Shown: piece after piece, positions 14,555 through 63,498 of the stretch
How positions within the stretch are numbered: the stretch's first letter is position 1
How the letters are laid out: every line of letters begins with the position of its first letter
Origin: Agelas oroides
Taxonomy: Eukaryota > Porifera > Demospongiae > Agelasida > Agelasidae
Direction: 5' to 3'
DNA: 64,000 nt
Assembly: GCA_949130485.1 (NCBI GenBank)
Contig: OX422184.1
Span: 18,647,824-18,711,823, forward strand
Notes under the pieces: generated by a model
The model's database searches: none
Seen by the model: only the letters and a program-made list of their open reading frames with translations
What the model was told of the DNA's origin: nothing
Program-made: the position numbers and the translations under genes

Positions 14555-16307
14555 TTACTCAGCTTCAGCATACTTATTTTTATAGTCATATACAAAGTTT
14601 CCATCATAGGCAGAGCCATATTCAGCACTACCATAGTCAGCACTACCATAGTTAGGGGAAGGTTTAGGAGAAGTCCCTGGAGACAATCGAGGGGGAGAGC
14701 TTGGATCTGGTAGAGGGGTAGCATTTGGAACAGCTGAATGGAAAGTATTTGAGAAAGGTAGAGAAGTAGGAGTTGGGGCAAGTGATTGAGGAGTACTTGT
14801 GAGGAGTGAAATGGTTGTAGTTGGTGAGGGGCAGATTAGATAATCATCACTGCCACAGCTGCTATAAAGTGAAGACAAGGGACGACTTGGCAAGTTCCAT
14901 GTCTTGGAAAATGGATCCCATCGATGTCTGGAGCCCCATTCGATCCCACAGGGGAAACTCTGTATATATAGGGATGATATGACACAGTATTCATAGAGCT
15001 AACTTGTGAATAACATATAGCTAACTCCATTTACTGACAATTGGATTTTTTATTACTGTGCTATAACTTACGATTTTCATGTTCCATACTTTTTCCTGCA
15101 AATCTTGACCCGACGTAACTTACATAACTCATGCAAAACATTTTTTCTATCATAAGTAGTAAATGTGTCAATGAGATTAACATTGACTTACAAAACTTCC
15201 ACCCCATGGTAGAGCTTGTACAGCTGTGCTACTAAAGGATATGACTTACAGTTGTCACACTCCATACTTTCTTCCTGCACATCTTGACTCGACGTATCTG
15301 ATACCAGGCTTCCAGGTTTATTCTGTTGTTTGGCCATCCGTCGTATACACCAATGCAGACCCGAGCTCTTGGTGGTCCAGCTACGCAACTGGCACACAGC
15401 CTTCCTTCTCCACTACACACAATTCGATATTCCAAAGTAATACTTACTGACACTCCACCTCTTGCTAAACTCTGTAGAATGGGAGTACAAAAGGAAGAGA
15501 AGGTGTGATATTAGATCTGATTGGCACATATAGCTGTCAGTCTTATATAGTTATACAGCCATACTACACAAGTGGAACACAGCTCCCCTGGCACACAGCC
15601 ATACTCAAACCATACTGCATGTTAGTTCCATAGAGTTCACACAACACAGGATCGCTCACCAGTAGGTTGCCTGTAACACCACCTTCAACTGTGAAAGTCA
15701 AACGTGGACCAACTTCTACCAAGGCACAAAGACAGGTTGAATTGCCACAAAGCTCAGCTCGAAAGTCCATGTGACCTTTCACATAAGGTTGCAGATAGAG
15801 TGTTAGAGTTCCGACATAAACGAAAATGCTATATGACACACCGGGCAGATTATATCTCGGTGAGGATACGGTTCTCGAAAAATTAGTACAGTAAGTTGCA
15901 TTAATGTTATTGGTGCAAGACCAATCAACAAGTACATTACTGTTTAATTTGAAGTACAGCTTAGCTTGCAGTCGGCTGTCTGTTTTCTCTAGCAATGCTT
16001 CTGCATGCAGTATGGTCCATGACCAACGAAGCAAGTTTGCCTTTGCAATGGCTTTGCCAAATGCCTTCAGGTTTGGGCAAGTAGGATGGTGTCCTATAAA
16101 CAATCCAGCACCAATTGTAAGGTTTGCTTTATCAATTCCAAGTGTTTTGCCCCAAATGTATGCCGTGTGATTGGGATAGTTCTAACCCAAAGATTGGAAA
16201 ATTCGTAAGCAATTTGTGATAAATAATATTATACAAATCAGCTAATTAAAGTGATATATGGAGCTCATTGGCACAAGTTTTCTAATTCATTTGTTTTAAA
16301 CCACAAG

Positions 16308-16344
<37 letters not shown>

Positions 16345-20599: not shown

Positions 20600-20651
20600 A
20601 GTGATGCAGATCGTGCTCACAGCCTGCAATGGGTCAAGAAGCACTGAGGCC

Positions 20652-20705: not shown

Positions 20706-23555
20706 TTACAAACATGTAAGTTCAAATATTATCTGTGTAGTCAAACTGAAAGTATTAATGCACCCGATATATTTTCCACCAAAATTTACAACTAACTATT
20801 AGAGGTTACAATAACTTTTTCTACACCTTCATTACATTTCCTACTTTTTGATGACAAAATCATCACAGCGAATACTAATAGGTTATCCCAAAATAGATTC
20901 ACACTCGAAAATACTAAAGGTTAGCTATGTCTACAGGTCACAGCTGTGAACAATAAACGATACGTCACTTTCATTTCGTAATGGAATCTACTGTGGCTAT
21001 GACGTTTCACATCACCTCATAAATGACCTTTGTACCCAACCGAAGGGGGAAGTCACTGAAAATAGCTGGAAGTTGACTACGCGTCATATGTAGGACAAGC
21101 TGTTGGTTCGAGAAGTGATTCCTCGAGCTCCGTATCTAATTTTTGTTTGACTGTGGCGGACTGTTTTATACTTGGATGAGCAGCTGGCATGGCTGACATC
21201 TGCTGTGGATAGTCTTGTCCTCAGACCCCACTCCGTATACTTTGTAGATCCATCAAATACTTACAGGCTTAGAAATCCTCCAGCTTGTTTGTGAGCTATA
21301 AAGGTAGCCGAGACAGACTGCTCAATTAAACAAATTAGTTAACTAGGTATCTACAGGTTTTATGGTTATAGGTCACATGCAGTTTCACTTGTTCAGTAAA
21401 AGTGAAGTCTATCTACTGCTGAGTTTGTACAAAAGCTGATCATGAGCTCTGGACTGGAGACATGGACTTGACTATGGACTATATTTGGAGTGAGTTTTGG
21501 GCTAATGTGGAGCTTGACGTATGGTCTGAGTGGTTATGTACTGCTAGTGGCAAAGTCATGCAGGTATACTGTACATGCAGAACTATATACATTGACTATG
21601 ACTCAGCTTGCACTCCAAATGATTGCATTGTAGCCTTATTAGGTTAACCTGTGAAATTGAATGGAATGCAATCAACCTCACAACCGGAAATAAGAACTAA
21701 GTGTCAGGAAAGACAAACGAAGTGCTACATTGTGCTCCACCCCTGAGGGCTTCTGGACCAACCCACTTATATTAGTAGGGGAAGCCCCAACCCAACCACA
21801 GACCGCTTGTAGCGCCCATTAGCCCCCATGCCTTCCAAATTGCTGGGGAGAACTCTAATCATATTGTTACTATTGTGAGTTACATGTTCTAGTAATATAA
21901 CTGTTAAGAGCTGCAACTTCATCTCATCTCCTGATTTGAGGTGTAACTATGAGTGTATGTGCTGCTCATACATACAAGCAGTGCAGGTATCAATAGCACG
22001 ACAAGGTAACAGTTTCTACTAAATTTGAAGGTCAACACGAATAACTGAGTGGGAGAAATTCTAACGCCCATTTTATCGTTATACGTAGTCCAAGTCGAGA
22101 TCAAGTAGAGGCTATTTTTGTTAGGCCTGTTCTATAGATGTAAGCATAAAGGCATACCTACCTGGATGCATGTGCTAGAACAATTAGCCTCATTCCCAAG
22201 GCCAGATTGTGATCTTGTCACAGCTTAGACGTGAGGCTATGTATGAACAATCAATGAACCACATCTCCCAGAAACAAAAGGCACACCTAGATATTATGCA
22301 CAGTCACACAGGTAGTGAAGGTTGTGGTCAGCACAAAAGCATATGTCCGTATAGCACTTTCAATACTTGTGTTATGTGAGTCAGCCATTTCCTTCACTGG
22401 GTAAATCATGATCACCACGATCTCTAGAGCACTTACTAACGTGTTTACTCTCATAGCATAAACAATCAGTAAACCACATTTTTTGTTAAAAACGTCAAAA
22501 GCAATAATGCAAGCTAGTGTTTTGTAGTCTAAAAGATACGTTGGGTACTTATAAGTCATTTATAAATGAAGCACAATGCATCCTTGTAGGTAGAGTCTAT
22601 AACATAATTTACATTGTCAAACTATATTACTATTTTGATTACCTTACTATGCCTACACTTGCTATATACTACACAGCTTATTATTATAGCAGCTGATACA
22701 AACTAGAATACCACTACTACAAACTTCATCTGGGGTGAGGGTACTACACAACTAAGCTGACCTACTTTCTGCAAGGTACGCAAGACAACCAATACAACTA
22801 TAACTTTAACAGAGTTGCTACCACTACAGACTCACTATCTAACTCAGTTCGTTATAAGTTCCTCTACAAAACATAAACAACTACTGTATATTGTAAAATG
22901 TTATGTAGTCCCGTCAAAGGTGACTTGCGTCACTTTCTTTGACATCAACATCTTCAGTCTGTTTACATGCCAAGTCTGATTTTTCTAAAGAGAACAAACA
23001 TTACATTTGCATAATACAAAATGGTGGTGTTACTAAGTACTCACAAGGCATAAGTGGACGTGCTACAATGAGATTGTATTCTGCTACTGCTGCTATTTGC
23101 TATATCATGCCTAAGCATGAGGCACTCAACTGCTATCTGGTCCCATGCCTTGTGCTTATAAATCAGTTATACCCAAATGCATGGGCATGATTTGAATCAT
23201 GCATTTAATGTGCATTCCTAGGTGGTTTAGCCATGGAAAAGTGAATACAGCTGGCCACTGCAGTTTGTTGAATGGACATGATCTGAATCATTAGTGTGCA
23301 TTGCTAGGTTGTACAGCTAGAGAGTTGTTTAGCCATGAGAATTTGAGTACAGCTAGCCACTGTAGTTTTTTAGCTGCCCTTTAATGTTTTTCCACTCACT
23401 GGGTATAAGGAGGCTAAGCTAACTTGTTACTAGCCAGTTTCGTGCATTGGTGTTGGGAAAAAATGAAACACAGTTGATCTCATTATCCCCACTCAAGAAT
23501 ATACTTTTGAAGGTGGGGCTAGTAATGCTTGCTTCCACTCGTGAATGAGCCCCTT
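20706..23555. other. Upstream flank of LLTP-B, duplicated upstream of LLTP-C
   Basis: No gene was found. The region is collinear with about 32440-36600, with shared text such as ctgttaagag(c/t)tgcaacttcatc, tacctggatgcatgtgct and tgtcaaagcaataatgc-like blocks. It contains a short AGCCTCATTCCC foldback at about 22189-22238 that is present in both copies. The short open frames here are not conserved as protein between the copies. Confidence 0.6.
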
Positions 23556-26060
23556 GTTGACCTTGAAAACGCAGGGTTCCCTGCCACCTTAAACTGAAGC
23601 TTCTGATACAGATATCTACAAAACTTGTGCATATATACTCTGAACAACCTGTGGACAATTCCACAGTGAAACTAGCTACAAAGTGGTCAACTAAACTGAA
23701 GCAGGAATTTTACAGAGTAAAAAATCATACTCAGCAAAAGCTGAGATTGAACCTGTGGACATTCTGGCAGCAAAGTGTAATGGTGTAAGGACTCTCTCCT
23801 GTCATAGTGTAGATCCTAGGACAATGAATGAGGTTTGAAGTCTGGTAAACAGTTCGGTTTTCAATACTCACCCATTACACCATACAAACTAGCATGCTAT
23901 ACTCACCGTCATGCTCGAGTGTATAGTAGTCAGCAATCTGCTCAAGTAGCTGGTACAATGCTTATTCCTTTTTCCTTACAAGCCACTGCCAATCTCAGTG
24001 TTATATATTTTCCTGGGGGGGTAATGTGCACCAACATGAGGTGTGGGTCTTGTTCCCAGGCTATTTATGTAAAATGGGGTGTTAATCCACCCACTCCCCC
24101 GTCCCGCCCAAAATGTTTGTAAGCCCAGGTTATGCATTGCCTATTGTCATCGAAAAATGTAGCTTGTTATCAAAATCAGTTTGTGTAAGGAGAAGGCTGC
24201 ATGTGTTTTGGGTTTATATGATGCATCATGTAACCTTGCAGGTGAGTGAGTCACATTAATTGGAGAGCATATCAATAATTTTAATGTCAGTCCACCAGTC
24301 CATTCCAGTGATTCCAGATGGGCCCTATGTACTAAAGGTTACTCAGTTCCTTTTTGAACGGAAGTCTAATACTGTATATAGGCTTTCAGAACAGAAGCCG
24401 CAAATGCAATATAAAGCCATACCCATGCATGCAGTCCAGTCAAGTTCTTGGCCGGTCACTCACTGTGAGCCAGTAGATTTTGAATCCTTACACAGTCAAT
24501 TAGTGTTTTTGAGAGTCTGTATATGCCATATACATTTTGTATGGAGCCAGCAAACAAGTACAGTCTTGCTATGTACACTGGAGGTGGTGAAGGTCCTGGA
24601 AGAAAATCAGACCCTCTCCCCACACCGTCTGCACGCTCGTAGCCATACACCTGAGTGTGTGTGTGTGCGTGTGTGTGCGTGAGTGGTGTGTGTTGTACAC
24701 GTACATGTATATGAGTGCATGTAAGTATAAATGTACATGTACATGTGTCTATACGTGTGTGTGTGCATACGTGGGTATGTGTGTGTAGGTAGAGAGCAGG
24801 GAACATGAACAGTGCACTAGCCACTGAGTACACACAGAAGCCGGACATTACCAAGAGTGCGTTTGTCTGTTGAAAGTACACGGTTGGAGATAGAGGGCTA
24901 ATGCATGAGACTAAGAAGGTACCTTTTGGTACAAACCGTGTTATCATCAGTACAATGGGTGGTATATTCCGTGTACATACTGTGAACAATACTTGAGTAA
25001 TCAGCACCAGTTACATTGATGTGACATTGTGTATGGGGAAATATCAAGCCCCACAAACGACCATGTGAAAAAAAGTTGTGATGACACAAGCCAGAGCCAT
25101 GTCTAATAACTCTATGACTGTACCTTACGAAAGTGAGGATAAATCACTTGTGAAGCAATAAATTGAGAAAACCGTTGTGGTGATAAAATTCTAACCACTG
25201 AGTATTGTACTTCAGGTGATGTACTTTGCTACATTTAGTCCACCTGTAGATTGTGAGTGTAGCTTTTGAGAAATCATAACCACTGACCATCTGTAGCACA
25301 TGATGTACTAGTCCATGTGTAGCTATTGTCGATCTTCACAATATAGTTTGTGCTTTTTGCAGCCACCCATAAGTCAAGATCCAAACAAATATTAGATTTG
25401 GTCATTACCATCGCTCAATCATGCAGCTACACTAGGTAACTAATATGTCTTCACTATGAATAAGCTGCGTGTAAACTGTGAACTGCTTGTAGAAGTAAAG
25501 TCTTGAGTGTGTTGCAATGTATTAATTAATCCATAGCATACATGAAAGAAAAAGATGAAGATACCAGCATACTAAAGTACACAAAGACTTGGCAAATGTT
25601 GGTGTAAGTATGCATATAGCTAGTGAGTGTAGCTATTGAGAAACTATTTATCATAACCACTAACTACCCGTAAGAGGTGATATACAATCTAGTCCATGTG
25701 TAGCTATGTCAACAGTGTTCTTTTATGTACGGATCTTGTGGTTTTTACAGTAACCCACGTGCACAGTCAAGATGTTACGGATGTGTAAATGCTATAGCTC
25801 ATGCAGCATATATGCTGTGCTATACTGACGGAACATCTGTATGAACAAACTGTGTTTAAACTGTGACCTGATTGTAGAAGTATGTTGCACTGGACTAATA
25901 TGTTCAAAAATGTATGCAAGTACAATGCAATTGCAGGACAATAAAGTGGGTAAACAAGCTATAGGAGTCATGGCATACATAACTGTATAAAATTACTAAA
26001 ATGACATCAGCATACTAAACTACACTAAGATGGCAAGGCAAATATGAGTACAAGCAAACT
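23556..26060. repeat. Segmental duplication unit 1, non-coding part
   Basis: It is nearly identical to 54878-57340 (offset about 31.3 kb) and continues into the LLTP-C and LLTP-D genes. It contains a TG/CA-rich stretch at 24655-24790. The long open frame at 24456-25007 is mostly low-complexity His/Thr and is conserved only because the DNA is. A short inverted fragment of the TTAA element family forms its left edge (about 23500-23590). Confidence 0.85.
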
Positions 26061-26064
26061 GTCT

Positions 26065-26070
26065 TTTATT
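26065..26070 (-). terminator. AATAAA polyadenylation signal of LLTP-C
   Basis: AATAAA on the minus strand lies 20 nt downstream of the LLTP-C stop codon (26092-26090). The same signal is present for LLTP-D. Confidence 0.55.
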
Positions 26071-26089
26071 CCTATACCCAGAAGCATCA

Positions 26090-29000
26090 CTAGGCAGGTG
26101 CAGATGAAGGAGCAGGGGGGAAGTCTGAATGAGGTGGAGGAGTATCTTGGAGAGATGGGCGAGGAGTGTCTGGGACAGGTGGAGGGGGAGAGTTTGGCAA
26201 GGGACATGTTGGATCATGCATACCACCACAGATGTTGTAAATCGAAGTCAAGGGACGACTTGGCAGGTTCCATGTCCGAGAAAATGAATTCCAACGATGT
26301 CTAGTACCCCATTCGATGCCACAGGGATAGTTCTATTAATGTGAAGAAAGTATGCATGTAGAAAATCAATGTATATGTGTTTGCAAAAATTGGATTTTGC
26401 ATTACTGTGTCATTATATTCTACAACATTTGCAGCAAATGGGTCAACAAATTATTAATTATTGACTTACAAATCTCCAACTCCATATTCTTCCTCTGCAC
26501 ATCTTAATGCGGCGTATCTGGTACCAGGCATACAGGTTAATTCGGTTGTTTGGCCATCCCTCGTATACTCCAACACAGGCCTGAGCTCTCGGTGATCCAG
26601 TTATACAACTTGCACACAGCCTTCCTTCACCGCTACCCTCAATTCTATATTCAAATATAACATCTACTGATACTCCACCTCTAGCCAAACTCTGCAGAAT
26701 GAGAACATAAAAAGAAATTCAAATGGTTAACATGTCTACATGCTACAAGCCTCAGTATATGAGGTAGGTAGTGATGTGTGACACAATCACAACCCTAAAT
26801 TCTTGATAATCCCAGTGCTTGAAAAATTCTTTCAAAATTGGTACAGCTTCACTACTAAACTCTCACTGAATATATATATATACTATAGTGCATGGGCGGA
26901 TCAAAGGCGCTGCATGCGGTCATATACGACATATACACCGCACAGCGGCGACCGCAGGGAGTATATTGCTGAGTCAGGGGTGTATATTTCAACCGCAAGG
27001 GAGTATATTGCTGAGTCAGGGGTGTATATTTTCAACCGCAAGGGAGTATATGGCTGAGTCAGGGGTGTATATTTCAACCGCAAGGGAGTATATTGCTGAG
27101 TCAGGGGTGTATATTTTCAACCGCAAGGGAGTATATGGCCGAGTCAGGGGTGTATATATAACTGCAGCACAGAGAAACGGAATTTTTTGGTTTTGCAATG
27201 GAATGGCCAATTCCCCCCAGTCCTCACTATAGCCTATAGGAGAGCCACTGCCAGCACTATAGACCCCTGTACTCAGTACTAGCACAACAGCCAAAGCGTC
27301 GCACAGGTTATTTGTGCAGCGATACAGTGCTTACTTGGTGTATTGAACCACGCACGGCTGGACAGATGCAACTGCTCCCCGGCAGCTAGCCGGCACTACC
27401 CTGACGGATGCCGACGATAATTTCACTTGCCAGGCGGTTGATACAGGGATAGCGCTAGGACCAGATTGTATTCGACGAGTTGTTGCCACCACTGCCAGCT
27501 GAACTGTGAGGCTGGGCGTTCTCGAACCATTGTTTCATGATCGCTAGATTCCGAGAGCAGCTAGGTAGCAAGCTAGCTGCCCATCGGCATCATGGCCGAG
27601 CGCCAGCAGCATCTTGGTTTCAAGTCGACACGAGCGAAATGCCCATCGTCATGGCTCAGACTCTGCCTTGACTGCAGAGATGTTTCAGGGGTCTTTTGGT
27701 GGCCTAAGAGTACTTAAACTCATCCTTTTCCAGTCAAAAAGCAGCAGCAACGCACAACGACACTAGCTTCGTCAACTCAAAATTCAAAAATGCAATACCG
27801 GAAGGAAACGGAACCGCTTACGTAATCCGCCCGTGCAGTATAGTATATTATATGAACCATGGTAAGGAGGTGTATATGGCGAATATACTACCCGAGACCA
27901 AGGTCAGATGAAGTTTGCAGTAGATATACCCCGAGCCGCACCATGGTTTATATATAACATATATATATATATATACAGCTGCTCTTGGTGATGCATGGAA
28001 CTTGTCTAGTGCAAGCATTTATATTTGCATAAAAATGCTGGCTTGCCAACCTTTACCCTCATAATTATATCATGGAAGGCCTCACCAGTATGTTGCCTGA
28101 AACGCCACCTTCAACTGTGAATATCAAACGTGGGCCGATTCCAGCAAAGCCACGAAGTGTTGTTAAATTGACACATAACTGTGTTCGAAAGTCGATATTA
28201 GCTCGCACATGAGGTTGTAGGTAGAGTGATAGAGTTCCAACATAAATGAATATGCTATATGACACACGAGGCAGATTATATCTTGGTGAGGAGTATAAGG
28301 TTCTTGATGGAGTAAGAGTGCAGTTAGAAAAACTTGTTGCATTGGACAAATCAATAAGTACATTACTGCGCACTTTGAAGTACAGCTTAGCGTGCACTTG
28401 GCTGTCTGTTTTCTCCAGCAATACTTCTGCATGCAATAAATCCCATGACCAACGAAGTAAATTTGCTTGTGCAACGGCTTTGCCAAATACTTTCAGGTTT
28501 GGACAAGTAGGATGATGTCCGATAAACAATCCAGCACCAAGTTTAATATTTGCTTGGCTAATTCCAAGTGTTTTTCCCCAGATGTAAGCCGTGTGGTTTG
28601 CGTAATTTCGAACATCAGCAGCACGGCTACCTTGTGAAACAACCACATCATAATCTGAATTTGATTCATCCCAATCTGTTCCTCGTTTTCCTCTGTTTGA
28701 ACTCTTTACGTCTTCAAGAGCATCAACTAACCCTTCTGTTTCTGGAATCTCAAAGGTTTCCACAAATGAGAGAACAAGCTCTACTAACTCTACATCTCCA
28801 ACTTGTACGGCAGAGGCTACAAGTGCTGTCTGAAGCTCCAATGATGGTGTGTAATCTATATCCCTTTCATTCAAGTATTTGGATCCCTCACTAAGTGTTT
28901 CTGCAATGGCCACTACATGCTCATAGCTCGTAGGCATAGACAGAAGTCTGGAGTACAGTGTCTCCTCCACAAGTGGATCGTTAATGAGCTTTCGCATTGC

Positions 29001-32330: not shown

Positions 32331-32382
32331 AGTGATGCAGATCGTGCTCACTGCCTGCAATGGGTCAAGAAGCACTGAGGCC

Positions 32383-38041: not shown

Positions 38042-38093
<52 letters not shown>

Positions 38094-49248: not shown

Positions 49249-49439
49249 TTTGTCAAAAGCATCATCCTTTAAGTGTGGTTGTAGTGACTCCCTGACAGAT
49301 GTTCTGTCGGTTGTCAGTTGTAATGTATGAGTTGGTTATGCAATTAGCCTCTAGTACCAATATAAGCATCTCATAACCACTGTCTCCTCAGCTTGACTGC
49401 AACCAGAGTAACCACTCTGTGGTTAAAACAACCAATATT

Positions 49440-49680
49440 TTTTGCAAACTGAAGCAGGAATTTTACAGAGTAAAATCATACTCAGCAAAAGCTGAGATTG
49501 AACCTGTGGACATTCTGGCAGCAAAGTATAATGGTGTAAGGACTCTCTCCTGTCATAGTGTAGATCCTATATATAGGATCTACACTATGACAGGAGAGAG
49601 TCCTATGATTTTTACTCTGTAAAATTCCTGCTTCAGTTTGCAAAAAATATTGGTTGTTTTAACCACAGAGTTGACCACTT
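49440..49680. repeat. Long near-perfect inverted repeat centred near 49573
   Basis: ggactctctcctgtcatagtgtagatcctata is followed directly by its reverse complement. Further out, gcaaactgaagcaggaattttac and ccaatattttttgcaaac are mirrored too. The left arm is a direct copy of part of the segmental unit (23697-23820); the right arm lacks an internal ~70 bp. The TTAA elements at 48226-49248 and 49793-50823 are placed symmetrically around this centre in opposite orientation. Confidence 0.88.
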
Positions 49681-49792
49681 TGTAGCTAGTGTCACTGTGG
49701 AATTGTCCACAGGTTTGTTCAGAGTATGCACAAGTTTTGTAGATATTATGTTGAACTCCAGGATCAATTAGGAACCTTCTTTCACTAGTGTA

Positions 49793-50823
49793 TTAAGGTG
49801 GCACAGTACCCTGGATTTTTAAGGTCAACAAACCTGGAATCCAAGCTGATAGACTTCTTTGTCTTGTTAAAATTTTAGCGCACAGTCCGTTTTGAGAGTC
49901 TCAAACCGTTCACGGTCCGTAAAATTGGGGATTTCCCCCGTTTCCTGTCGGCATTGCCATCCAATAATCAGTTTATAATTAAGTTAGTTAAGATGTGGCC
50001 TGGCGGCACCCTTCATGTGGTGGTCGGAACTTTGAAAATAAGCTTAGATCGACTTAATAAAAAACAAAAAAAAAAAAAAAAAAAAAAAAAGGAGTTTAGT
50101 AGAGTGCTGTAGTGTCAGTAGCTGTGAGTAGTGCGTAATGTCTGCTTGTGAAAGCAAGCTTGCGTCTAGAAGAAGCAGAAAGGCCACAGTGGCCAAGACT
50201 GTGTTTGTTAAGTAGGCCCAGGTCTCGCGGCCGTATGCCTAGCCTAGTTGGTGACCGTGGCCAGGTGCTTCAAGTGCTGGGATGGGCTTTAACTAGAATA
50301 CGCAATTTATCGTTCAGGGTGCTACAGTCTGACAGCCAAGGGAGCTGAACGGTGGCTGTGTGTGGAACAGAGCCGTGAGTTGTTTAGCGACATAAGGAAG
50401 AGAGGTGGGGCTAGTAATGCTTGCTTCCACTCGTCAATAAGCCCCTCCTGTAGACAAGCTGTGAATTTTTTAAAATGTGCATTCATTTTGGTGCAGTCAA
50501 AGTTGTCCATTCCAGGAGTAGTGACAAACATGAGTCTAGCCTGACTTTGAGAGTAGCTTTGAACAAAAGCTGGCATAGATTGTTTTGAGATACATTGGTG
50601 GTTGGGACGCTACCTACAGTGAGCGTGTAGATGCGTCCATCGAGTGGCAATTTGGGGTTCATGAATATATTAATGAGCTACTAAAACCCTTTTTAAAATT
50701 AGGCAAAGCAAGATTGCCCTAAAGCAAACCCTAATCCTGGAACTAGGAGTAACCCTGGTCCTGACTGTAACCCAGGTTTATGTTTTCGTTAACCTCCGCC
50801 GAGTGACGACCGTGCCACCTTAA
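49793..50823 (-). mobile_element. TTAA-ended MITE, copy 2 (inverted)
   Basis: It has the same termini and content as copy 1 in the opposite orientation, with a long A tract at about 50060-50090. Its open frame is at 50576-50322. With copy 1 it forms an inverted pair about 0.5 kb apart. Confidence 0.7.
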
Positions 50824-53775
50824 AGGTGTGTGATTTAATTTTACAAAGGACAAACAACTAATGTATTGCTACATCAAAGTTGAATCATGTAGCTAACAGG
50901 TACGCGTGTTGTTTTGTGAGACCAGTTTGATGTAGTAGTCATGCACACTGTAAACAAATCGTGTATCAAATGAGCAAAAAGCCACAAACTGACTAGTCAA
51001 TGTAGCTGTAAGTGTACACAGGAGTTATTAGCCTTTCCTGCACTTCATTAAATCCTTCAGCTGGCCCAGCAGTGCATATGGAATGGTGGTTCATATTCTG
51101 CTGGGTTTATCAACTGATCCAGCAGTGCATATGGAATGGTGGTTCATATTCTGCTGGGTTTATCAACTGATCCAGCAGTGCATATGGAATGGTGGTTCAT
51201 ATTCTGCTGGGTTTATCAACTGGTCCAGCAGGGAACCGCTATCCAAGGGCTCCACTTCTGCTTCACCCTGATTTCTGATTGCTATTGCAGCACACTTCCT
51301 TTTCAGGTATTGAGTGATACCTGTCACTGTTGTCAGCTGAAATACAAAGGATTCCAAAGAAGGTTGCAAGTAATAAAGAAAAAGAGGTGTCCCCAACTAC
51401 AAGCTGATCACTTTACTGACATGGTAGATGTACACAGTGGCAGCAGATAAAATGATCACGTTCAGGGCAAGTGAACCTTCTAGGGCATATAAACATGCCA
51501 GCTTCTGTAAACCCCACCACTGACCCAGGCCCACACTGCAAGAATTCCAGTTCCAACTAAACCTACTAGTAGGTTAATATTAGTGCCTTGTTGAGGATTG
51601 AGCTCAATGGCAAACAGTAGCTAGATAAGAACAAAGTGAAGTGCAAGCAGCATGCAGTCTGGGCCAGTAGTGATGCTTTGCCTTGTAAGGAGGTAGGGAG
51701 TAGGGTATGAATCCACGAAAGCTTTCAGCCTGGCACTGTTGACCCAAGAGCCTCAGTTGTGATATGGATTGCAGCCACTGACCAAAAACATGTAAGGAGG
51801 AAGCAGGAAGAGAAAGACAAGCACTGCTACCCTGAAGAGTGGAACGAGTTTGCCACTGGTTTGCATCATAAAACCACACCCTTGCATGGAGCACTTTTTA
51901 GATGTGCCTAGTGGCTACAATATTTTAACCTTCCTTACAACATCCACACAAGAGGCCCAACCTGTTGCATGTCACTTCTGTTAAGAGGAAAGACAACTGC
52001 ATGGGAGACACAGTAGTCGAAAGGGCAGAGTGGGTGGACAGTAATTAGTTCATCAGATTATCATACCCAACCCACACCGGTTTGCTTGAGTCGTATGTTA
52101 TTTGTCCTATAGTCTATTTGTTATATTGCACTGAAGTTCACATTGTTTAATTCTTGGCTCTCAGATGCATGATTTTTCAGATTTAGAAATGTTGAATCCA
52201 GGTGGGCATGTCAGTGATATGTCCACTAAAATAAGCATGCATGCAGTGTATAGTCATCATGTTTTGAAATGGGGGCTACATTCTGCAAACAACACTATCT
52301 CCACAAACTGGGACTGTGAAAGTGTAGTTCAGTTTGGTGCAGGTGTTGTTTGCTTGTTAGAGGTATTGATAATCTCGAAGATTGGTACTAACTGAGGTTG
52401 TCCTGGCCCTGTTTGTACAATTTGTCTTGTAGCTAACTAATTTTAAGATATCAGATTTTCTGAGCCCAGAAGTCTAGATTAGAATTTTCTCTGAGCTTTC
52501 AAAAAGCATACTATTGAAATTGAAAATGTAGCTATTCAAAATCAATTGACTATGTATTCATGCAATACACAATTTTGTCTACAGTGTTTCAGTTTCCGAG
52601 CAATAAACTACTTTCTCCATCAAGGATACTGTCCAAAACTTCACTGGCAAAACATTCTTCTAACTAGATGACTCTTCAACAACCAAACATCAAGTAGCTA
52701 TGGAATTGGAATCAGAACAGAATTGAAAATGGAATATGCATGACATGAAGGCATGTTCAACAGTATCGGTAGACTCTGACTATAATGCAAGTTCATGGTG
52801 GTAGCTATAGTGTGTCAGGTTTATACAGCTGACTTCCTGATTCTCATAACTGTGACTGTACTTACGTAAACTTGAGTGAGGTATGAGCACCTGTGATGTC
52901 AGTGACAAACCAACTGGCATGCAGGTGTTCCAAAATTGGGTGGGAAAATGCCCCTCTGGATATCCATTGTCGCACTTGAAAAGTCATAAGACAAAGTCAC
53001 AAGACAACATTAAAATAACTCAAAACTGATGCCGAATGCAGTCCAGTTTGAAACTTCAAAGGTACAGATGAATCCACAAATGTTAAGGGTAGCTTGTGTT
53101 CATGCCTCACACATACTGTTGTTATGGTAACATTTGTATAGCTGTACCACAAAATAAGATTGTTCTAACTCAAAAACAACAGTTCTCTTAAGATGCTGCA
53201 CATAACTGAACCAAGAATATTCCACGTTACATTTGTCAAGTCAACCCTATCCAGTGCTACCACAGAACAAACATGACACCACTAATCATATTCTTGAGGA
53301 CCAATGAACGGAATGTTGCCTAGGGGTGCCAAACAGAGCTAGCTAAATTCAACTATTAATATGCATGAGGGAAGGGATTGCCTGACTTCCAGCCGGAATT
53401 ACATGCCTTTAATGAGATTCATTGATCTCCATTCAGACATTAACAACATTCACAAGTATCCAAGGAGGGTTAATTCGATTCCTAGCCCAGTTCCGTTCGG
53501 GTTTGAGTCCATGAAAGGCTTAGGGCATACTCATAAATATTCAACATCATTTACCCATTCCTTTCAACCCCAAGCCAAGCTGCCAATGCTTCAACAGAAG
53601 GTCAATAATGAGGTTCACGAGAGTCACACATACTCTAACCCTCCCACTGGACAGCTGACTGAACCCAGGGTTGTTCATGGGTAATGCTGAGGTCTAGTTA
53701 AAGCCAACTCGTTAATATTCATGAGGTGGAGAGAAACACTCCAGATTTTAGAGCTCGGTCGGGCTTTAATTAGAT
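50824..53775. other. Intergenic DNA without recognisable gene
   Basis: Apart from the 53-bp array and a dispersed repeat (52795-53145, related to 5690-6060), I see no exon with plausible splice sites and no RNA gene here. Confidence 0.5.
51066..51236. repeat. 53-bp tandem repeat, three full units and a partial one
   Basis: Units starting ccagcagtgcatatgg lie at 51066, 51119 and 51172, with a partial unit at 51225. The period is exactly 53 bp and the copies are nearly identical. Confidence 0.92.
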
Positions 53776-53880
53776 TCATAGGCTCAATTAGGGTTAGGGA
53801 GATTAGGGTTAATGAGATTAGGGTTAGGGATTTTAGGGTTAAGGCAAACTAGGGTTAGGGCTAGGGCTAGGCTTAGGGTT
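53776..53880 (+). repeat. Degenerate TTAGGG-like interstitial repeat
   Basis: Many (t)tagggtta units, some separated by gagatta or gctagg variants, run up to the edge of the TTAA element that starts at 53881. TTAGGG is the common metazoan telomere unit. The tract is short and impure. Confidence 0.7.
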
Positions 53881-54914
53881 TTAAGATGGCGGGGAAGTCT
53901 TTCGGCGGAGGTTAACGAAAACATAAACTTGGGTTACGGTCAGGACCAGGGTTACTCCTAGTTTCAGGGTTAGGGTTTGCTTTAGGGCAATCTTGCTTTG
54001 CCTAATTTTAAAAAGGGTTTTAGTGGCTCATTAATATATTCATGAACCCAAAATTGCCACTCGATGGACGCATCTACACACTCACTCTAGGTAGCGTCCT
54101 ATCCACCAATGTATCTCAAATCAATCTGTGCCAGCTTTTGTTCAGAGCTACTCTCAAAGTCAGGCTAGACTCATGTTTGTCACTACTCTTGGAATGGACA
54201 ACTTTGACTGCACCAAAATGAATGCACATTTCAAAAAATTCACAGCTTGTCTACGGGAGGGGCTCATTCACGAGTGGAAGCAAGCATTACTAGCCCCACC
54301 TCTCCCCCTTATGTCGCTAAACAACTCATGGTTCTGTTCCACACGCAACTCCTCTGGAGCTTTCTTGTGTACTGCAGCCTACTACCAACGATATATTGCG
54401 CATTCTAGTTAAAGCCCAGCCCAGCACTCGGAGCACCAGGCCACGGTCACCTACTAGGCTTGGCATACGATCGCAAGACCTGGGCCTACCCAGTGAGTTC
54501 AGTCTTGGCCACTGTAGCCTTTCTGCTGCTTCTAGACACAAGCTAGCTTTCACAAGCAGGCATTACGCACTACTCACAACTACTGACACTACAGCACTCT
54601 ACTAAAACTCCTGTTTTTTTTTTCTTTTTTTTTTTTTTCTTTTTTTTTTTTAAGTCGATCTAAGCTTATGTTCAAAGTTCCGACCACCACATGAGGGGTT
54701 CCGCCAGGCCACATCTTAACTAACTTAATTATAAACTGATTATTGGATGGCAATGCCGACAGGAAATGGGGAAAATCCCCAATTTTACGGACAGTGAACG
54801 GATGAAGACTCCCAAAACGGACTGTGCGCTAAACGTTTACAAAGACAAAGAATTCTATGAGCTTGGATTCCAGGTATGTTGACCTTGAAAACGCAGGGTT
54901 CCCTGCCACCTTAA
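53881..54914 (+). mobile_element. TTAA-ended MITE, copy 3
   Basis: It has the same content as the copies at 48226 and 49793, with decayed outer repeats (ttaagatggcgggg at the left, ccctgccaccttaa at the right). T-rich tracts lie at about 54614-54652 and the shared open frame at 54128-54412. In the sister duplication unit only a short rearranged end of this element remains (about 23500-23590). Confidence 0.7.
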
Positions 54915-57340
54915 ACTGAAGCTTCTGATACAGATATCTACAAAACTTGTGCATATATACTCTGAACAACCTGTGGACAATTCCACAGTGAAACTAGCTA
55001 CAAAGTGGTCAACTAAACTGAAGCAGGAATTTTACAGAGTAAAAAATCACACTCAGCAAAAGCTGAGATTGAACCTGTGGACATTCTGGCAGCAAAGTGT
55101 AATGGTGTAAGGACTCTCTCCTGTCATAGTGTAGATCCTAGGACAATGAATGAGGTTTGAAGTCTGGTAAACAGTTCGGTTTTCAATACTCACCGTCATG
55201 CTCGAGTGTATAGTAGTCAGCAATCTGCTCAAGTAGCTGGTACAATGCTTATTCCTTCTTCCTTACAAGCCACTGCCAATCTCAGTGTTATATATTTTCC
55301 TGGGGGTGTAATGTGCACCAACAGGAGGTGTGGGTCTTGTTCCCAGGCTATTTATGTAAAATGGGGTGTTAATCCACCCACTCCCCCGTCCCGCCCAAAA
55401 TGTTTGTAAGCCCAGGTTATGCATTGCCTATTGTCATCGAAAAATGTAGCTTGTTATCAAAATCAGTTTGTGTAAGGAGAAGGCTGCATGTGTTTTGGGT
55501 TTATATGATGCATCATGTAACCTTGCAGGTGAGTGAGTCACATTAATTGGAGAGCATATAAATAATTTTAATGTCAGTCCACCAGTCCATTCCAGTGATT
55601 CTAGACGGGCCCTATGTACTAAAGGTTACTCAGTTCCTTTTTGAACGGAAGTCTAATACTGTATATAGGCTTTCAGAACAGAAGCTGCAAATGCAATATA
55701 AAGCCATACCCATGCATGCAATCCAGTCAAGTTCTTGGCCGGTCACTCACTGTGAGCCAGTAGATTTTGAATCCTTACACAGTCAATTAGTGTTTTTGAG
55801 AGTCTGTATATGCCATATACATTTTGTATGGAGCCAGCAAACAAGTACAGTCTTGCTATGTACACTGGAGGTGGTGAAGGTCCTGGAAGAAAATCAGACC
55901 CTCTCCCCACACCGTCTGCACGCTCGTAGCCATACACCTGAGTGTGTGTGTGTGCGTGTGTGTGCGTGAGTGGTGTGTGTTGTACACGTACATGTATATG
56001 AGTGCATGTAAGTATAAATGTACATGTACATGTGTCTATACGTGTGTGTGTGCATACGTGGGTATGTGTGTGTAGGTAGAGAGCAGGGAACATGAACAGT
56101 GCACTAGCCACTGAGTACACACAGAAGCTGGACATTACCAAGAGTGCGTTTGTCTGTTGAAAGTACACGGTTGGAGATAGAGGGCTAATGCATGAGACTA
56201 AGAAGGTACCTTTTGGTACAAACCGTGTTATCATCAGTACAATGGGTGGTATATTCCGTGTACATACTGTGAACAATACTTGAGTAATCAGCACCAGTTA
56301 CATTGATGTGACAGTGTGTATGGGGAAATATCAAGCCCCACAAACGACCATGTGAAAAAAAGTTGTGATGACACAAGCCAGAGCCATGTCTAATAACTCT
56401 ATGACTGTACCTTACGAAAGTGAGGATAAATCACTTGTGAAGCAATAAATTGAGAAAACCGTTGTGGTGATAAAATTCTAACCACTGAGTATTGTACTTC
56501 AGGTGATGTACTTTGCTACATTTAGTCCACCTGTAGATTGTGAGTGTAGCTTTTGAGAAATCATAACCACTGACCATCTGTAGCACATGATGTACTAGTC
56601 CATGTGTAGCTATTGTCGATCTTCACAATATAGTTTGTGCTTTTTGCAGCCACCCATAAGTCAAGATCCAAACAAATATTAGATTTGGTCATTACCATCG
56701 CTCAATCATGCAGCTACACTAGGTAACTAATATGTCTTCACTATGAATAAGCTGCGTGTAAACTGTGAACTGCTTGTAGAAGTAAAGTCTTGAGTGTGTT
56801 GCAATGTATTAATTAATCCATAGCATACATGAAAGAAAAAGATGAAGATACCAGCATACTAAAGTACACAAAGACTTGGCAAATGTTGGTGTAAGTATGC
56901 ATATAGCTAGTGAGTGTAGCTATTGAGAAACTATTTACCCGTAAGAGGTGATATACAATCTAGTCCATGTGTAGCTATGTCAACAGTGTTCTTTTATGTA
57001 CGGATCTTGTGGTTTTTACAGTAACCCACGTGCACAGTCAAGATGTTACGGATGTGTAAATGCTATAGCTCATGCAGCATATATGCTGTGCTATACTGAC
57101 GGAACATCTGTATGAACAAACTGTGTTTAAACTGTGACCTGATTGTAGAAGTATGTTGCACTGGACTAATATGTTCAAAAATGTATGCAAGTACAATGCA
57201 ATTGCAGGACAATAAAGTGGGTAAACAAGCTATAGGAGTCATGGCATACATAACTGTATAAAATTACTAAAAATTAATGACATCAGCATACTAAACTACA
57301 CTAAGATGGCAAGGCAAATATGAGTACAAGCAAACTGTCT
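54878..57340. repeat. Segmental duplication unit 2, non-coding part
   Basis: It is nearly identical to 23556-26060, with single-base changes and a few small indels (for example a 19-bp deletion near 56936). It is collinear into LLTP-D. Confidence 0.85.
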
Positions 57341-57346
57341 TTTATT
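57341..57346 (-). terminator. AATAAA polyadenylation signal of LLTP-D
   Basis: AATAAA on the minus strand lies 20 nt beyond the LLTP-D stop codon (57368-57366), as in LLTP-C. Confidence 0.55.
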
Positions 57347-57365
57347 CCTATACCCAGAAGCATCA

Positions 57366-60300
57366 CTAGGCAGGTGCAGATGAAGGAGCAGGGGGGAAGT
57401 CTGAATGAGGTGGAGGAGTATCTTGGAGAGATGGGCGAGGAGTGTCTGGGACAGGTGGAGGGGGAGAGTTTGGCAAGGGACATGTTGGATCATGCATACC
57501 ACCACAGATGTTGTAAATCGAAGTCAAGGGACGACTTGGCAGGTTCCATGTCCGAGAAAATGAATTCCAACGATGTCTAGTACCCCATTCGATGCCACAG
57601 GGATAGTTCTATTAATGTGAAGAAAGTATGCATGTAGAAAATCAATGTATATGTGTTTGCAAAAATTGGATTTTGCATTACTGTGTCATTATATTCTACA
57701 ACATTTGCAGCAAATGGGTCAACAAATTATTAATTATTGACTTACAAATCTCCAACTCCATATTCTTCCTCTGCACATCTTAATGCGGCGTATCTGGTAC
57801 CAGGCATACAGGTTAATTCGGTTGTTTGGCCATCCCTCGTATACTCCAACACAGGCCTGAGCTCTCGGTGATCCAGTTATACAACTTGCACACAGCCTTC
57901 CTTCACCGCTACCCTCAATTCTATATTCAAATATAACATCTACTGATACTCCACCTCTAGCCAAACTCTGCAGAATGAGAACATAAAAAGAAATTCAAAT
58001 GGTTAACATGTCTACATGCTACAAGCCTCAGTATATGAGGTAGGTAGTGATGTGTGACACAATCACAACCCTAAATTCTTGATAATCCCAGTGCTTGAAA
58101 AATTCTTTCAAAATTGGTACAGCTTCACTACTAAACTCTCACTGAATATATATATACTATAGTGCATGGGCGGATCAAAGGCGCTGCATGCGGTCATATA
58201 CGACATATACACCGCGCAGCGGCGACCGCAGGGAGTATATTGCTGAGTCAGGGGTGTATATTTTCAACCGCAAGGGAGTATATGGCTGAGTCAGGGGTGT
58301 ATATATAACTGCAGCACAGAGAAACGGAATTTTTTGGTTTTGCAATGGAATGGCCAATTCCCCCCAGTCCTCACTATAGCCTATAGGAGAGCCACTGCCA
58401 GCACTATAGAGACCCTGTACTCAGTACTAGCACAACAGCCAAAGCGTCGCACAGGTTATTCGTGCAGCGATACAGTGCTTACTTGGTGTATTGAACCACG
58501 CACGGCTGGACAGATGCTACTGCTCCCTGGCAGCTAGCCGGCACTACCCTGACGGATGCCGACGATAATTCCACTTGCCAGGCGGTTGATCCAGGGATAG
58601 CGCTAGGACCAGAATGTATTCGACGAGTTGTTGCCACCACTGCCAGCTGAACTGTGAGGCTGGGCGTTCTCGAACCATTGTTTCATGATCGCTAGATTCC
58701 GAGAGCAGCTAGGTAGCAAGCTAGCTGCCCATCGGCATCATGGCCGAGCGCCAGCAGCATCTTGGTTTCAAGTCGACACGAGCGAAATGCCCATCGTCAT
58801 GGCTCAGACTCTGCCTTGACTGCAGAGATGTTTCGGGGGTCTTTTGGTGGCCTAAGAGTACTTAAACTCATCCTTTTCCAGTCAAAAAGCAGCAGCAACG
58901 CACAACGACACTAGCTTCGTCGACTCAAAATTCAAAAATGCAATACCGGAAGGAAACGGAACCGCTTATGTAATCCGCCCGTGCAGTATAGTATATTATA
59001 TGAACCATGGTAAGGAGGTGTATATGGCGAATATACTACCCGAGACCGAGGTCAGATGAAGCTTGCAGTAGATATACCCCGAGCCGCACCATGGTTTATA
59101 TATAACATATATATATATATATATATACAGCTGCTCTTGGTGATGCATGGAACTTGTCTAGTGCAAGCATTTATATTTGCATAAAAATGCTGGCTTGCCA
59201 ACCTTTACCCTCATAATTATATCATGGAAGGCCTCACCAGTATGTTGCCTGAAACGCCACCTTCAACTGTGAATATCAAACGTGGGCCGATTCCAGCAAA
59301 GCCACGAAGTGTTGTTAAATTGACACATAACTGTGTTCGAAAGTCAATATTAGCTCGCACATGAGGTTGTAGGTAGAGTGATAGAGTTCCAACATAAATG
59401 AATATGCTATATGACACACGAGGCAGATTATATCTTGGTGAGGAATATAAGGTTCCTGATGGAGTAGTAGCACAGGCAGAGGTATTGGTCGCATTAGAAA
59501 TATCAATGAGTACATTATTAAGTAGCTTGAAGTACAGCTTAGCTCGCACTTGGCTGTCTGTTTTCTCCAGCAACATTTCTGCATGCAATATGTTCCATGA
59601 CCAGCGTAGTAAATTTGCTCTTGCAATGGCTTTGCCAAATACTTTCAGGTTTGGACAAGTAGGATGATGTCCGATAAACAATCCAGCACCAAGTTTAATA
59701 TTTGCTTGGCTAATTCCAAGTGTTTTGCCCCAGATGTAAGCCCTGTGGTTTGCGTAATTTCGAACATCAGCAGCACGGCTACCTTGTGAAGCAACCACAT
59801 CATAATCTGAATTTGATTCATCCCAATCTGTTCCTCGTTTTCCTCTGTTTGAACTCTTTACGTCTTCAAGAGCATCAACTAACCCTTCTGTTTCTGGAGT
59901 CTCAAAGGTTTCCACAAATGAGAGAACAAGCTCTACTAACTCTACATCTCCAACTTGTATGGCAGAGGCTACAAGTGCTGTCTGAAGCTCCAATGATGGT
60001 GTGTAATCTATATCCCTTTCATTCAAGTATTTGGATCCCTCACTAAGTGTTTCTGCAATGGCCACTACATGCTCATAGCTCGTAGGCATAGACAGAAGTC
60101 TGGAGTACAGTGTCTCCTCCACAAGTGGATCGTTAATGAGCTTTCGCATTGCACTAATAGAGGCAAGCTGAACTTCAAGTTCACTGTGGTTTTGAAAGGA
60201 GATGATAGTGTCCAGTGCAAAGGGGGACCCAGTGTTTCCTAGTGCATGGATATAGTGAACCAATGTCATCACTGATCTTGGAGCATCTTCCAGTCTGTTG

Positions 60301-63300
60301 AGAAGGAATGTAACAATTCTCTGTTCACTCTCCTCTATTGTGTCAGAGGCCAGTGCACCATAGGCCAGCAGCAAGGGATCAAGATGGTTCTCAGTTGATA
60401 TGATAACCACTTCTAGCTCAGTAAGTGAAGCAGGGCTGGCATGACGAATGAAGGCAATGAAAGATACTATATTTGTCCGCTCACTCTCAGTAGATGCACG
60501 TTGAAAAGCTTTGATAATGGCCTGACATTGAGAAGAGCAGAAACTTCGAGTGAATATGACAATTAGAATTCTGATATGCATGCACAGATACAATTATTGT
60601 GCACATATTTAGTGAATACCTTGTATTCCCACCAAATTTATGTATATCCTATCGTTATGGTAGTTGCGTACTCACCTTTTGTGACTTGTAGCTACCTTCT
60701 GCACTTAACAGTGAGTACAGAAGATTTCGCATTGATATATCAACTGGCTCCATAGAATTTTGTATCTAGGTAGAAAGATAGCACCACTTTAAGCTACTTA
60801 ACTGTAAATATCTGTGTTTATTGAAGTACGTATGCTTAACACTACTTTTGTACTTTTTATAACTACACATACCCCAAGATATTGCCTGGACTTACAGTGA
60901 TCTGAAAGTTTAGTGCTATAGTTTACTTTAGCTTTTGGTGGTCTCAGGACTGTACTTAGCTAGATGCGTACTAAACTGTGAATTCACCGGTAATTTGGTA
61001 GAGTATATACAGTCTTTGGGTTTTGGTCATGCACGTGCAGGACCACTTTTTCATGCTGATTGGTTTATTTCTAGGTTAAGTGCACCATGGCATTACTAGA
61101 TATGCAGATACAGATTGGACATTCATTGTTTCCACTGGCCTGCGTATTATATTATTCTGATTGTAGATCTTACTGTAGTCAAGAAGTCTATGACTGCATC
61201 AACTGCAGGTGCGAATCCAGGCAGTGTTCCAAATTCATATTCTAATATAAGGAGCCTCTCAAGCTGGTCACCTGTAATTAGAATATAACCATATATTGTG
61301 CACAGCAGGTCTTAAAAGTATAAAAATTTATAGTGACAATCAAGATTTTGAAACATACTAAGTTTATTGTTGTCGGGGTTAGAGTGCAGTTTCTCCAAAA
61401 CATGTGGAATTGATGGCATGGCTTCCCGAAGGTCTTCCATCTCTGCCTTGGAAAGAGAACCTGCAGGTGTAGAAATATGATCATGAATCATACACCAATG
61501 TACCTTTATAGCTATACACATGCATGTCTGAAAATAAAGTGAGAAGAGTTACCTTTATCAATGACAACTTCAAGAGATCCTCTTATCATTGGCTTCCTGG
61601 CACTCCTTCTCCCTCGTTTAGCAGTTGATGGCACTGTGTAGCAGCGCAACAGGTCAAGAACATATGAACCATTGGCAGAAAGTAGTTCATCATTTAGTGG
61701 ACCCTCTTGCAGAGTTGTGCGCCTGCCTGTGAACTTCTGTTTAGAATTTGCCATTTTGACAGTTGTTGATCCTGAAGAGTGGTAAAGGTGTCCTGAATGA
61801 TACTCAATGTCTTCCTCTTTCTCTAGCTGCATGTCCTTTACACGAGCTCCTGATGAATACTTTTTGACATCATCACTAGAGATAGTGCGATGCATCTTGA
61901 CTGACGTATCATTTCCTGTAGTCTCATACCTGCAAGAGAGAATGTCAGGCAACAGAATATTATTTTGCAATCCCACTTCATTGATGGAGTTGTTTTCATG
62001 ACATGATCATACATATAATCATCATTTATTAAAATTACCGGTAGTGTGCCACATGCAGTGATTGAGGATCTTCCTCCTCCTCCTCTTCCTGGTTCTGGAA
62101 GTTTGCCTGGAAGGCAGCAGCAATGCTCTTCTTCAGGTTCACTCCCTCAGGGTTGCTGTCCATTTCATAGTAAATCTCCACCACACGTCCATTTTCTGCT
62201 TGCACAAAGCAAAACTGACCAGAGGAAAGGTTGGTCATCAGAGCCTGCTGTTGTTGAACACTGTATGTGTTAGTTGGAAGAAAGGTAATTACTGCCATGG
62301 TAGCTACAAGTATATAGCTAACTACATCATCTTGTGAATAAGGATAATGTGCATGAAAACAATGAAATTGATCAGGAATCAGAGTACTTACTCCATGTTA
62401 TCATCACTGAAAGGAGAGCCCAATAAAACCACATCTTTCACAGTCAGACAGTACTCAGTTGCCTCTGTTTGGTTGAATGTCCCAACTGGATGGATGAAAC
62501 AAAAATCACAGTGAGGGAAGTATCTGCATATGCTATAAACACACGCTCGGTTGCTGGTTGCATGTATGTGCATGTTGAGATGAGGTTGTGGCTTGTGACG
62601 AACAGTCAGTCGAGCTGGGGCCAGCTTTGCCAATTTGGATGAAGTTCACAAGTCTAATTATAGGTGAGCTTTCAAGTTGGTGAGCGGAGAGAATGATGGC
62701 TGAGCAAAGCTTGGGCGTAATGGGAAGGGGCATTGTTTCACACTGAGGATGCGTTAGTTACTTCATTACACTATAGATAATCGTAGCTACTTAACTACAT
62801 TCATGTTTACACTGGTGTATAGCTACGTAGGAGTAGACATCATCGAGCAAAAGTAAACACTAGCCAAATAATAATAGGATTTAGCTGCACCAAAAGTTTC
62901 GACTGTCCTCATCCATGATATTCATGCATTAAGGTTTATTCTGTTGTTTACCAGAGTAACAATCCACTCTGACAATGGCAGACAGTGTGTAGTTCTGAAG
63001 CAAGTCTCCCTGAAAGAACTGCTGACTGGCGGTGAACTTGTACCTGCAGACACTGGTGTCCTAAAATGAGGATTTGATTTCAGTTAACAAAACATAATTA
63101 TTTTACTGTGTACAGAACTTGTATAAAGGAAAAAAATTTTCTCAAATAAACTCTACTGTAAAAGTAGTAAACAGCGACTTACGCCACACTAGCATATAAT
63201 GACATAATACAACAAGGATTACCTCAACTAAAATAACAACTACAGCTGCCAATTCGAGGAGCAGCAATGAAAGAAACATTAGTCTCGCGGGCCAGACTCT

Positions 63301-63498
63301 CACGTCTGGGCTGAGAGACTAAAGAAACATCTCCCAGTTTTCTGCAAGAGCTTTAGCTGATTAGAAAGAAAATATTTTGCAAACTAGAACATTTATTATT
63401 ACCTCGCATTGACCGCTTTCCACGTATCCACCTTGCACCAATGCTGACTCGAACAGCACGGCGAGCAGCGAAAGCGCGAACAGTTTTGCAAATTTCAT
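57366..63498 (-). CDS. Large lipid transfer protein-like (Vitellogenin_N), copy D, 978 aa
   Basis: Exons: 63498-63403, 63060-62952, 62485-62392, 62260-62039, 61929-61553, 61460-61359, 61271-61174, 60765-60676, 60521-59238, 57967-57746 and 57608-57366 (2937 nt). Every exon has the same length and phase as in LLTP-C, and there is no stop. The domains are as in C: signal peptide, Vitellogenin_N barrel with RGRR, helical domain, RGKR site, Cys-rich C-terminal region and Pro-rich tail. Exons 10-11 look identical to C. Exon 9 differs mainly around the SNATNTSACATTPS segment, just before the conserved LYSSPRYNLPRVSY. Parts of exons 5-7 and intron 5 match LLTP-A rather than B or C, pointing to gene conversion. 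Because D is intact and its promoter motifs are conserved, it is probably expressed. Confidence 0.88.
58156..58992. mobile_element. TIR element in intron 9 of LLTP-D
   Basis: It has the same termini and interior as the element at 26882-27844. It is 126 bp shorter, which equals three 42-bp minisatellite units, so only the repeat array differs appreciably. Confidence 0.75.

Follow-up and report, generated by a model that had tools for sequence, protein, structure and literature searches.

A 64,000-nucleotide stretch of the Agelas oroides genome (the window: contig OX422184.1, here C2, positions 18647824-18711823 of a 259-Mb assembly) contains a tandem array of genes whose products carry the N-terminal module of the large lipid transfer proteins (LLTPs). 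Animal lipoproteins and yolk depend on the LLTP machinery, and egg-yolk and blood-lipoprotein proteins are distant cousins of the proteins encoded here. An earlier note on this DNA had described three complete minus-strand genes encoding products of 978, 978, and 1202 amino acids, together with one partial gene and two relics. We reproduced the lengths and outer coordinates of the three complete genes, designated A, B, and C, exactly; when spliced on the minus strand their joined frames are open, and all 31 introns are of the GT-AG type. Positions below are relative to the window.

Gene C (63498-57366, minus strand) encodes 978 amino acids in 11 exons, of which exons 1-6 lie at 63498-63403, 63060-62952, 62485-62392, 62260-62039, 61929-61553, and 61460-61359, and exons 7-11 at 61271-61174, 60765-60676, 60521-59238, 57967-57746, and 57608-57366. 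Gene B (32330-26090, minus strand) likewise encodes 978 amino acids in 11 exons, with exons 1-6 at 32330-32235, 31888-31780, 31314-31221, 31089-30868, 30761-30385, and 30305-30204, and exons 7-11 at 30121-30024, 29614-29525, 29369-28086, 26691-26470, and 26332-26090. The 1202-residue product of gene A (20599-14555, minus strand) is encoded by 12 exons. The first six lie at 20599-20504, 20157-20049, 19582-19489, 19357-19136, 19026-18650, and 18550-18449, and the remaining six at 18372-18275, 17913-17824, 17667-16396, 16181-15660 (exon 9b), 15471-15250, and 14959-14555. As a correction to the exon plan that had been described as shared, gene A is recombinant and possesses the extra exon 9b.

The 5' part of a fourth gene, D, is present at 401-3222 on the minus strand, where exons 2-7 and a portion of exon 1 are matched. 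This partial gene continues beyond the start of the window, with exon 8-11 matches on the same contig at window-relative positions -159 to -4880. The two relics were both recovered on the minus strand, one at 6661-7303, consisting of a degenerate 3' part of exon 9 and exons 10-11 (36-50% identical to gene A; nearest, as judged by eye, to the copy E described below), and the other at 45918-47209, consisting of exons 1-3 with an in-frame stop within exon 2. Genes B and C, each with its 3' flank, reside in the two copies of a 9-kb segmental duplication (23555-32814 and 54877-63999) whose aligned blocks are 95-99.7% identical. Across their main aligned blocks, genes A, B, and C are 89-96% identical in DNA sequence, and Nei-Gojobori dN/dS ratios are 0.32 (A/B), 0.31 (A/C), and 0.31 (B/C). 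By region, the barrel has the smallest ratios (0.14-0.22), and those of the C-terminal part are 0.33-0.42. Because of this DNA identity and these ratios, the similarity is not due to chance. A, B, and C have the appearance of genuine genes subject to purifying selection, and a chance or pseudogene array is ruled out by the open frames and the dN/dS of 0.31.

The additional exon of gene A marks a crossover. Exon 9b (15660-16181, minus strand) repeats the 3' part of exon 9 and comes from a D-like gene. From its 5' end through exon 9, gene A matches gene B at 95% and 89%, and from base 16181, the exact start of exon 9b, its exons and introns match gene D at 91% and 88%. The gene A product has a tail (14959-14555) that is rich in Ser, Thr, and Pro and has terminal YGSADYGSAEYGS-type repeats, and its last 134 residues match gene D at 86%; the Pro-rich tails of B and C are unlike it. 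Gene A is a hybrid with a B/C-like 5' part and a D-like 3' part, and the 1202-residue length of its product results from unequal crossing-over between these two gene types, which eliminates a separate architecture for this protein. A, B, and C also diverge in patches, by 0-0.9% in introns 1-3 and by 28-41% in intron 5. Between B and C, up to 22 of 150 columns differ within exon 9, intron 9 differs by about 1%, and the region from exon 10 through the 3' flank does not differ at all (0%). The three genes are therefore mosaics, as expected from gene conversion. The family is a recently duplicated one, and these comparisons indicate that it grew through tandem duplication, unequal crossing-over, as in gene A, and gene conversion.

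The nearest named relatives of these proteins are uncharacterized proteins of Ephydatia muelleri, a freshwater demosponge, which score 459 and 427 bits at 31% identity over 95% of the length. The Ephydatia clusters, P0001 and P0002, contain 18 and 14 member sequences, respectively. A profile search added a third Ephydatia relative from EukProt, Em0003g648a (P0004), and three ENA fragments that are 60-68% identical. When P0001 was compared with the whole A. oroides genome, 52 exon matches were obtained, corresponding to 19 copies when grouped by exon 9. Genome copy counts are lower bounds, with copies counted by exon 9 and full models made for A, B, and C. Eleven copies, all on the minus strand, occupy approximately 300 kb of C2, in an array that is wider than the window, and the other eight are distributed among four loci: one at C2:15.71 Mb, four on C23, two on C21, and one on C5. 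One C23 copy (C23:1084475-1085397), whose exon 9 is split across two frames, is an apparent pseudogene in this second cluster. Copy E, at window-relative +126650 to +120547, has an exon 9 that is 59% identical to that of gene A. MTP-like length and a multi-copy tandem array, both described in the earlier note, are supported, and the array holds 11 of the 19 copies counted. The possibility that the C-terminal module also stands alone at other places in the genome was rejected, as all 52 P0001 matches (E≤0.001) fall at the five family loci, in a search that scores best candidates only and in which short C-terminal exons match weakly. A Vitellogenin_N search of the same genome reported five matches and missed A-D, and exon-wise family searches are therefore insensitive here.

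The presence of an LLTP core, claimed in the earlier note, was borne out. The gene C product matches Vitellogenin_N (PF01347) in Pfam at 41.4 bits (cut-off, 24; E 9.8e-11), and the domain is found in all four members of alignment A1; it is on this basis that we assign A, B, and C to the large lipid transfer proteins. Twelve family rows (A-E, three copies from C23, three Ephydatia proteins, and the JGI protein P0003) were combined into a profile, which matches a profile of five reference LLTPs with a probability of 97.7% (E 2e-12) over columns 37-551. Among subset profiles, the best match is to vitellogenin plus apoB, at 96.2%; the probability is 7.3% against an MTP-only profile composed of three mammals. 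In a homolog search with human MTP, the best 120 of 669 matches are mammalian where named. The barrel motif VNLKKSIAAAFQ of gene C, which we read off the alignment as N-x-x-[RK]-x-[ILV], is present in 12 of 12 rows and aligns with NIKRGI, NIVRGI, NILKSI, or NIKRGL in all five references. The barrel and helical domain thus belong to the LLTP superfamily. Sequence matches of the helical part in the PDB are chiefly to designed or natural HEAT repeats, with other weak, scattered matches, and together with a single chance-level C-terminal match (E 2.3) these were rejected as relatives. Pfam detects no open-sheet domain (DUF1943/DUF1944), DUF1081, or VWD in gene C or the A1 members; DUF1943/DUF1944 and VWD are the domains that we take to define vitellogenins. 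An NCBIfam search and a scan of viral contigs with P0003 returned nothing informative.

The helical domain is followed by a Cys-bearing region of approximately 300 residues, in gene C of the form FTVEGG..RLCASC..GWPNNRINLYAWYQ..W.LPS, which had been singled out as distinctive. Neither of two isolated C-termini has a Pfam match at E≤10, and MTP_lip_bd (PF19444) is unmatched at that threshold in both of them and in four full homologs; the human MTP control matches MTP_lip_bd at 4e-171. The region is nevertheless not peculiar to the window cluster, as it is common to the Ephydatia proteins and P0003. It is recognizable in all 12 family rows, although single motifs vary and Em0003g648a ends ahead of the last W motif. 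It is also conserved about as well as the core, with a mean pairwise identity among six representatives of 0.34, compared with 0.36 in the barrel and 0.35 in the helical part. As to a known LLTP domain, the C-terminus matches an LLTP C-terminal profile weakly (score 31.6, P 0.002) and collinearly with the N-terminal match, over a stretch that spans the 'GGV..LARGGVSV' strands. Sixty column shuffles scored at most 17.3, reversed controls 15.0 and 15.2, and LLTP barrel parts 11.7-12.8. These scores hint that the C-terminus may be a strongly diverged LLTP lipid-cavity sheet.

A tree was constructed from 558 columns of the large lipid transfer module with the 12 family rows and five long-branched references: human MTP, human apoB, honeybee vitellogenin, chicken vitellogenin, and lamprey lipovitellin. 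Rows for D, E, and the C23 copies were stitched from tblastn exon matches, and the broken C23 copy was left out. All 12 family rows form one clade (support 100/100) apart from the references, in agreement with the separate grouping that the earlier note had envisaged, but no sister is singled out among MTP, apoB, and the vitellogenins. Approximately unbiased (AU) tests rejected none of the placements, with p values of 0.445 when the family was held with MTP, 0.356 with apoB, 0.227 with the three vitellogenins, and 0.199 with bee vitellogenin. Among the references, bee vitellogenin joins apoB weakly and with a long-branch warning, and the three vitellogenins do not form one group. A second tree, of exon 9 from 16 of the 19 genome copies and rooted on P0003, unites the C2 and C23 copies, then joins Ephydatia, and then the C21 and C5 copies (87/82 and 86/84, neither starred), which hints that some paralogs are older than the split from Ephydatia. 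In this tree, the ENA proteins P0005 and P0006 group with copy E (100/100). Their source may be this sponge species, or one very near to it, that was sampled as a metagenome.

The products of A, B, and C each contain exactly two strict RX[KR]R motifs, at residues 279 and 622. In gene C, site 1 (RGRR, residues 279-282; 61605-61616, minus strand) lies at the junction of the barrel and helical domain, and site 2 (RGKR, residues 622-625; 59835-59846, minus strand) at the junction of the helical domain and C-terminal region. Shuffled gene C sequences contained a mean of 0.29 strict motifs, with a probability of 0.036 of two or more. Ten of the 12 rows have a strict site 2 and the remaining two a dibasic KR there, so that KR is present in all. 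Cuts after residues 282 and 625 of gene C would yield fragments of about 29, 38, and 39 kDa before glycosylation. The strict motif is absent from human MTP and from the N-termini of apoB and bee vitellogenin. PMC1783640 reports that furin cleaves insect apolipophorin II/I (apoLp-II/I) at an RX(R/K)R located from LLT motif N19 to N20, and that most insect vitellogenins have such a site between N6 and N7; judged by domain position, these would correspond to site 2 and site 1, respectively. The N-terminus is hydrophobic and signal-like by hydropathy, the highest later 19-mer having a mean of 1.63. Cysteines of the gene C product occur only at residues 31-270 and 685-941, that is, in the barrel and C-terminal part, and there are nine N-glycosylation sequons. 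The C-terminal end is unlike KDEL.

Several other features are interspersed with the array. A DIRS-like retroelement (10078-14016, plus strand) lies between the relic at 7.3 kb and gene A. It matches RVT_1 at 3.9e-15, RNase H at 26 bits, just over the cut-off, and a Dam-methyltransferase-like domain at 25.6 bits, under the cut-off; the DIRS label and a tyrosine-recombinase-like stretch are presumptive assignments of ours. Exons of a gene with SRCR-like and fibronectin-III-like (FN3) domains (39621-45641, minus strand) are located inside the array and adjoin the exon 1-3 relic; a single SRCR match in Pfam (8.5e-05) is under the family cut-off, and the other SRCR and FN3 domains were recognized by eye. 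Direct and inverted repeats of an approximately 1-kb element, 88-92% identical, occur at 48.2-49.2, 49.7-50.8, and 53.9-55.0 kb (48224-55014) and adjoin the edge of the B/C segmental duplication. Scans of the window for RNA families and tRNAs gave no matches.

We favor the reading, with a probability of roughly 0.55, that these genes encode secreted, furin-processed, apolipoprotein-like lipid carriers of sponges that constitute a short LLTP clade. In the predicted protein, a signal-like N-terminus is followed by a beta-barrel, then by a helical arch of HEAT-like type, and finally by the Cys-bearing C-terminus. In the endoplasmic reticulum (ER), the arch and a C-terminal sheet would take up phospholipid and neutral lipid. 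Furin-like proteases would then cut the two junctions, as is reported for insect apoLp-II/I and vitellogenin, and the three pieces would stay associated and ferry lipid between sponge cells, for example from archaeocytes or nurse cells to oocytes. Archaeocytes are described as nutrient distributors in PMC13341560. A number of observations weigh against this reading. Site 1 is strict in only six of the 12 rows, P0001 and P0002 lack a strict furin motif anywhere, P0003 and P0004 each carry one extra strict motif outside the junctions, and F3 has one motif against 0.37 expected by chance. Chicken vitellogenin and lamprey lipovitellin each have one strict motif inside the large lipid transfer module. 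Furthermore, HHalign gives the alignment of the C-terminus with the LLTP sheet a probability of just 13.9%, and single-reference C-terminal scores do not exceed 20.7 (bee), with MTP alone scoring 11.5.

Functions other than general lipid carriage would account for part of these data. That the proteins are specifically yolk precursors, the functional vitellogenins of sponges, is favored by the LLTP core and by the cleavage-type sites at the junctions, as in vitellogenin and apoLp. In addition, PMC9012834 describes a vitellogenin-annotated gene and its receptor whose levels in a vitellogenic female were approximately threefold higher without reaching differential expression, which would bear on this reading if the gene belonged to the window family. 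However, Pfam finds no VWD or open sheet, and the tree does not group the family with vitellogenins, so that we consider this specialization unlikely. It is quite unlikely that the genes encode sponge MTPs, which would stay in the ER lumen, unsecreted, as lipid transfer subunits for the loading of other lipoproteins. Their length is similar to that of MTP (894 residues), open-sheet, DUF1081, and VWD matches are lacking in Pfam, and a grouping with the one MTP in the tree is not rejected (p 0.445). Human MTP itself is unmatched in the genome at E≤0.1, and a separate MTP is thus not seen, in a search that is insensitive because it missed the LLTP family too. Against an MTP identity are the conserved basic sites at the junctions, a number of copies (about 19) out of keeping with a housekeeping role in the ER, the 7.3% probability for the three-mammal MTP profile versus 96.2% for vitellogenin plus apoB, and the failure of MTP_lip_bd to match the proteins at E≤10 or the genome anywhere, an empty genome-wide answer being no proof of absence.

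The form of the array itself lends some color to two further explanations. Secreted immune effectors that bind lipid patterns, with lipid transport secondary, might diversify in just such an extensive tandem array, in which unequal crossing-over and mosaics like those of gene conversion occur. An SRCR/FN3-like gene is embedded in it, and between A and either B or C the dN/dS of the C-terminal part (0.33-0.34) exceeds that of the barrel (0.14-0.22). Yet dN/dS is at most 0.42 in all three regions, the C-terminus is conserved about like the core, and the Vitellogenin_N module is kept, making such a role very unlikely. Alternatively, the 9 kb shared by B and C at 95-99.7% identity might reflect uncollapsed haplotypes laid in tandem during assembly. 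An artefact of this kind is highly improbable given the patchiness of the divergence, from near identity in introns 1-3 to 28-41% in intron 5 and 0% from B/C exon 10 to the 3' flank, the different 3' part of gene A, and the 11 array copies, whose divergence is graded as far as they were included in the tree.

The window genes belong to a real LLTP subfamily, common to Ephydatia and greatly expanded in this genome, within a superfamily that is itself known. Surprising features are its copy number and the coexistence of MTP length with secreted-type cleavage motifs. We propose only tentatively, and regard as somewhat doubtful, that it represents a further demosponge LLTP family beside MTP, APO, and vitellogenin: minimal secreted apolipoproteins of about 900-1000 residues, cut by furin into barrel, arch, and cavity-sheet chains, that retain a state preceding the acquisition of DUF and VWD domains, number about 20 genes in some sponges, and make up the lipoprotein system in animals that lack a circulation. 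A conserved, secreted-looking demosponge clade of MTP length would, if true, provide a handle on the origin of lipoproteins before circulatory systems. The array also illustrates clearly how LLTP genes can recombine in nature to new lengths. PMC9012834 states that there are no studies on lipoproteins in sponges. The literature on LLTPs or vitellogenin with sponges that we covered names no sponge LLTP family; Hayward et al. 2010, which possibly covers sponges, lies outside that scope.

Comparison with known systems places the family closest to the Ephydatia proteins EMCRGX_G018221, EMCRGX_G003505, and Em0003g648a, which share the barrel, HEAT-like helices, basic junction, and C-terminus at 31% identity over 87-95% of the length, although they form their own clade (100/100) and two of the three lack a strict RX[KR]R. 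Human MTP (PDB 8eoj/6i7s) resembles the sponge proteins in its LLTP barrel, helical domain, and length, but its MTP_lip_bd is unmatched in the sponge C-terminus and it has no strict furin motif. The vitellogenins (chicken; lamprey, 1lsh; honeybee, 9enr) belong to the best-matching subset profile and, for most insects according to PMC1783640, possess the N6/N7 cleavage site. In contrast to them, the sponge proteins have no open beta-sheet or VWD match in Pfam, and their sequences do not contain the polyserine stretch of bee vitellogenin. The APO family, apoLp-II/I and apoB, also shares the LLTP core; the sponge proteins end at about 980 residues without DUF1081 or VWD, apoLp having been compared by description rather than alignment. 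The same source places the furin-type cut of apoLp-II/I at N19/N20. Its presumed counterpart in the sponge proteins, an RX(R/K)R that follows the helical domain, is present in strict form in 10 of the 12 rows, in which cleavage is predicted.

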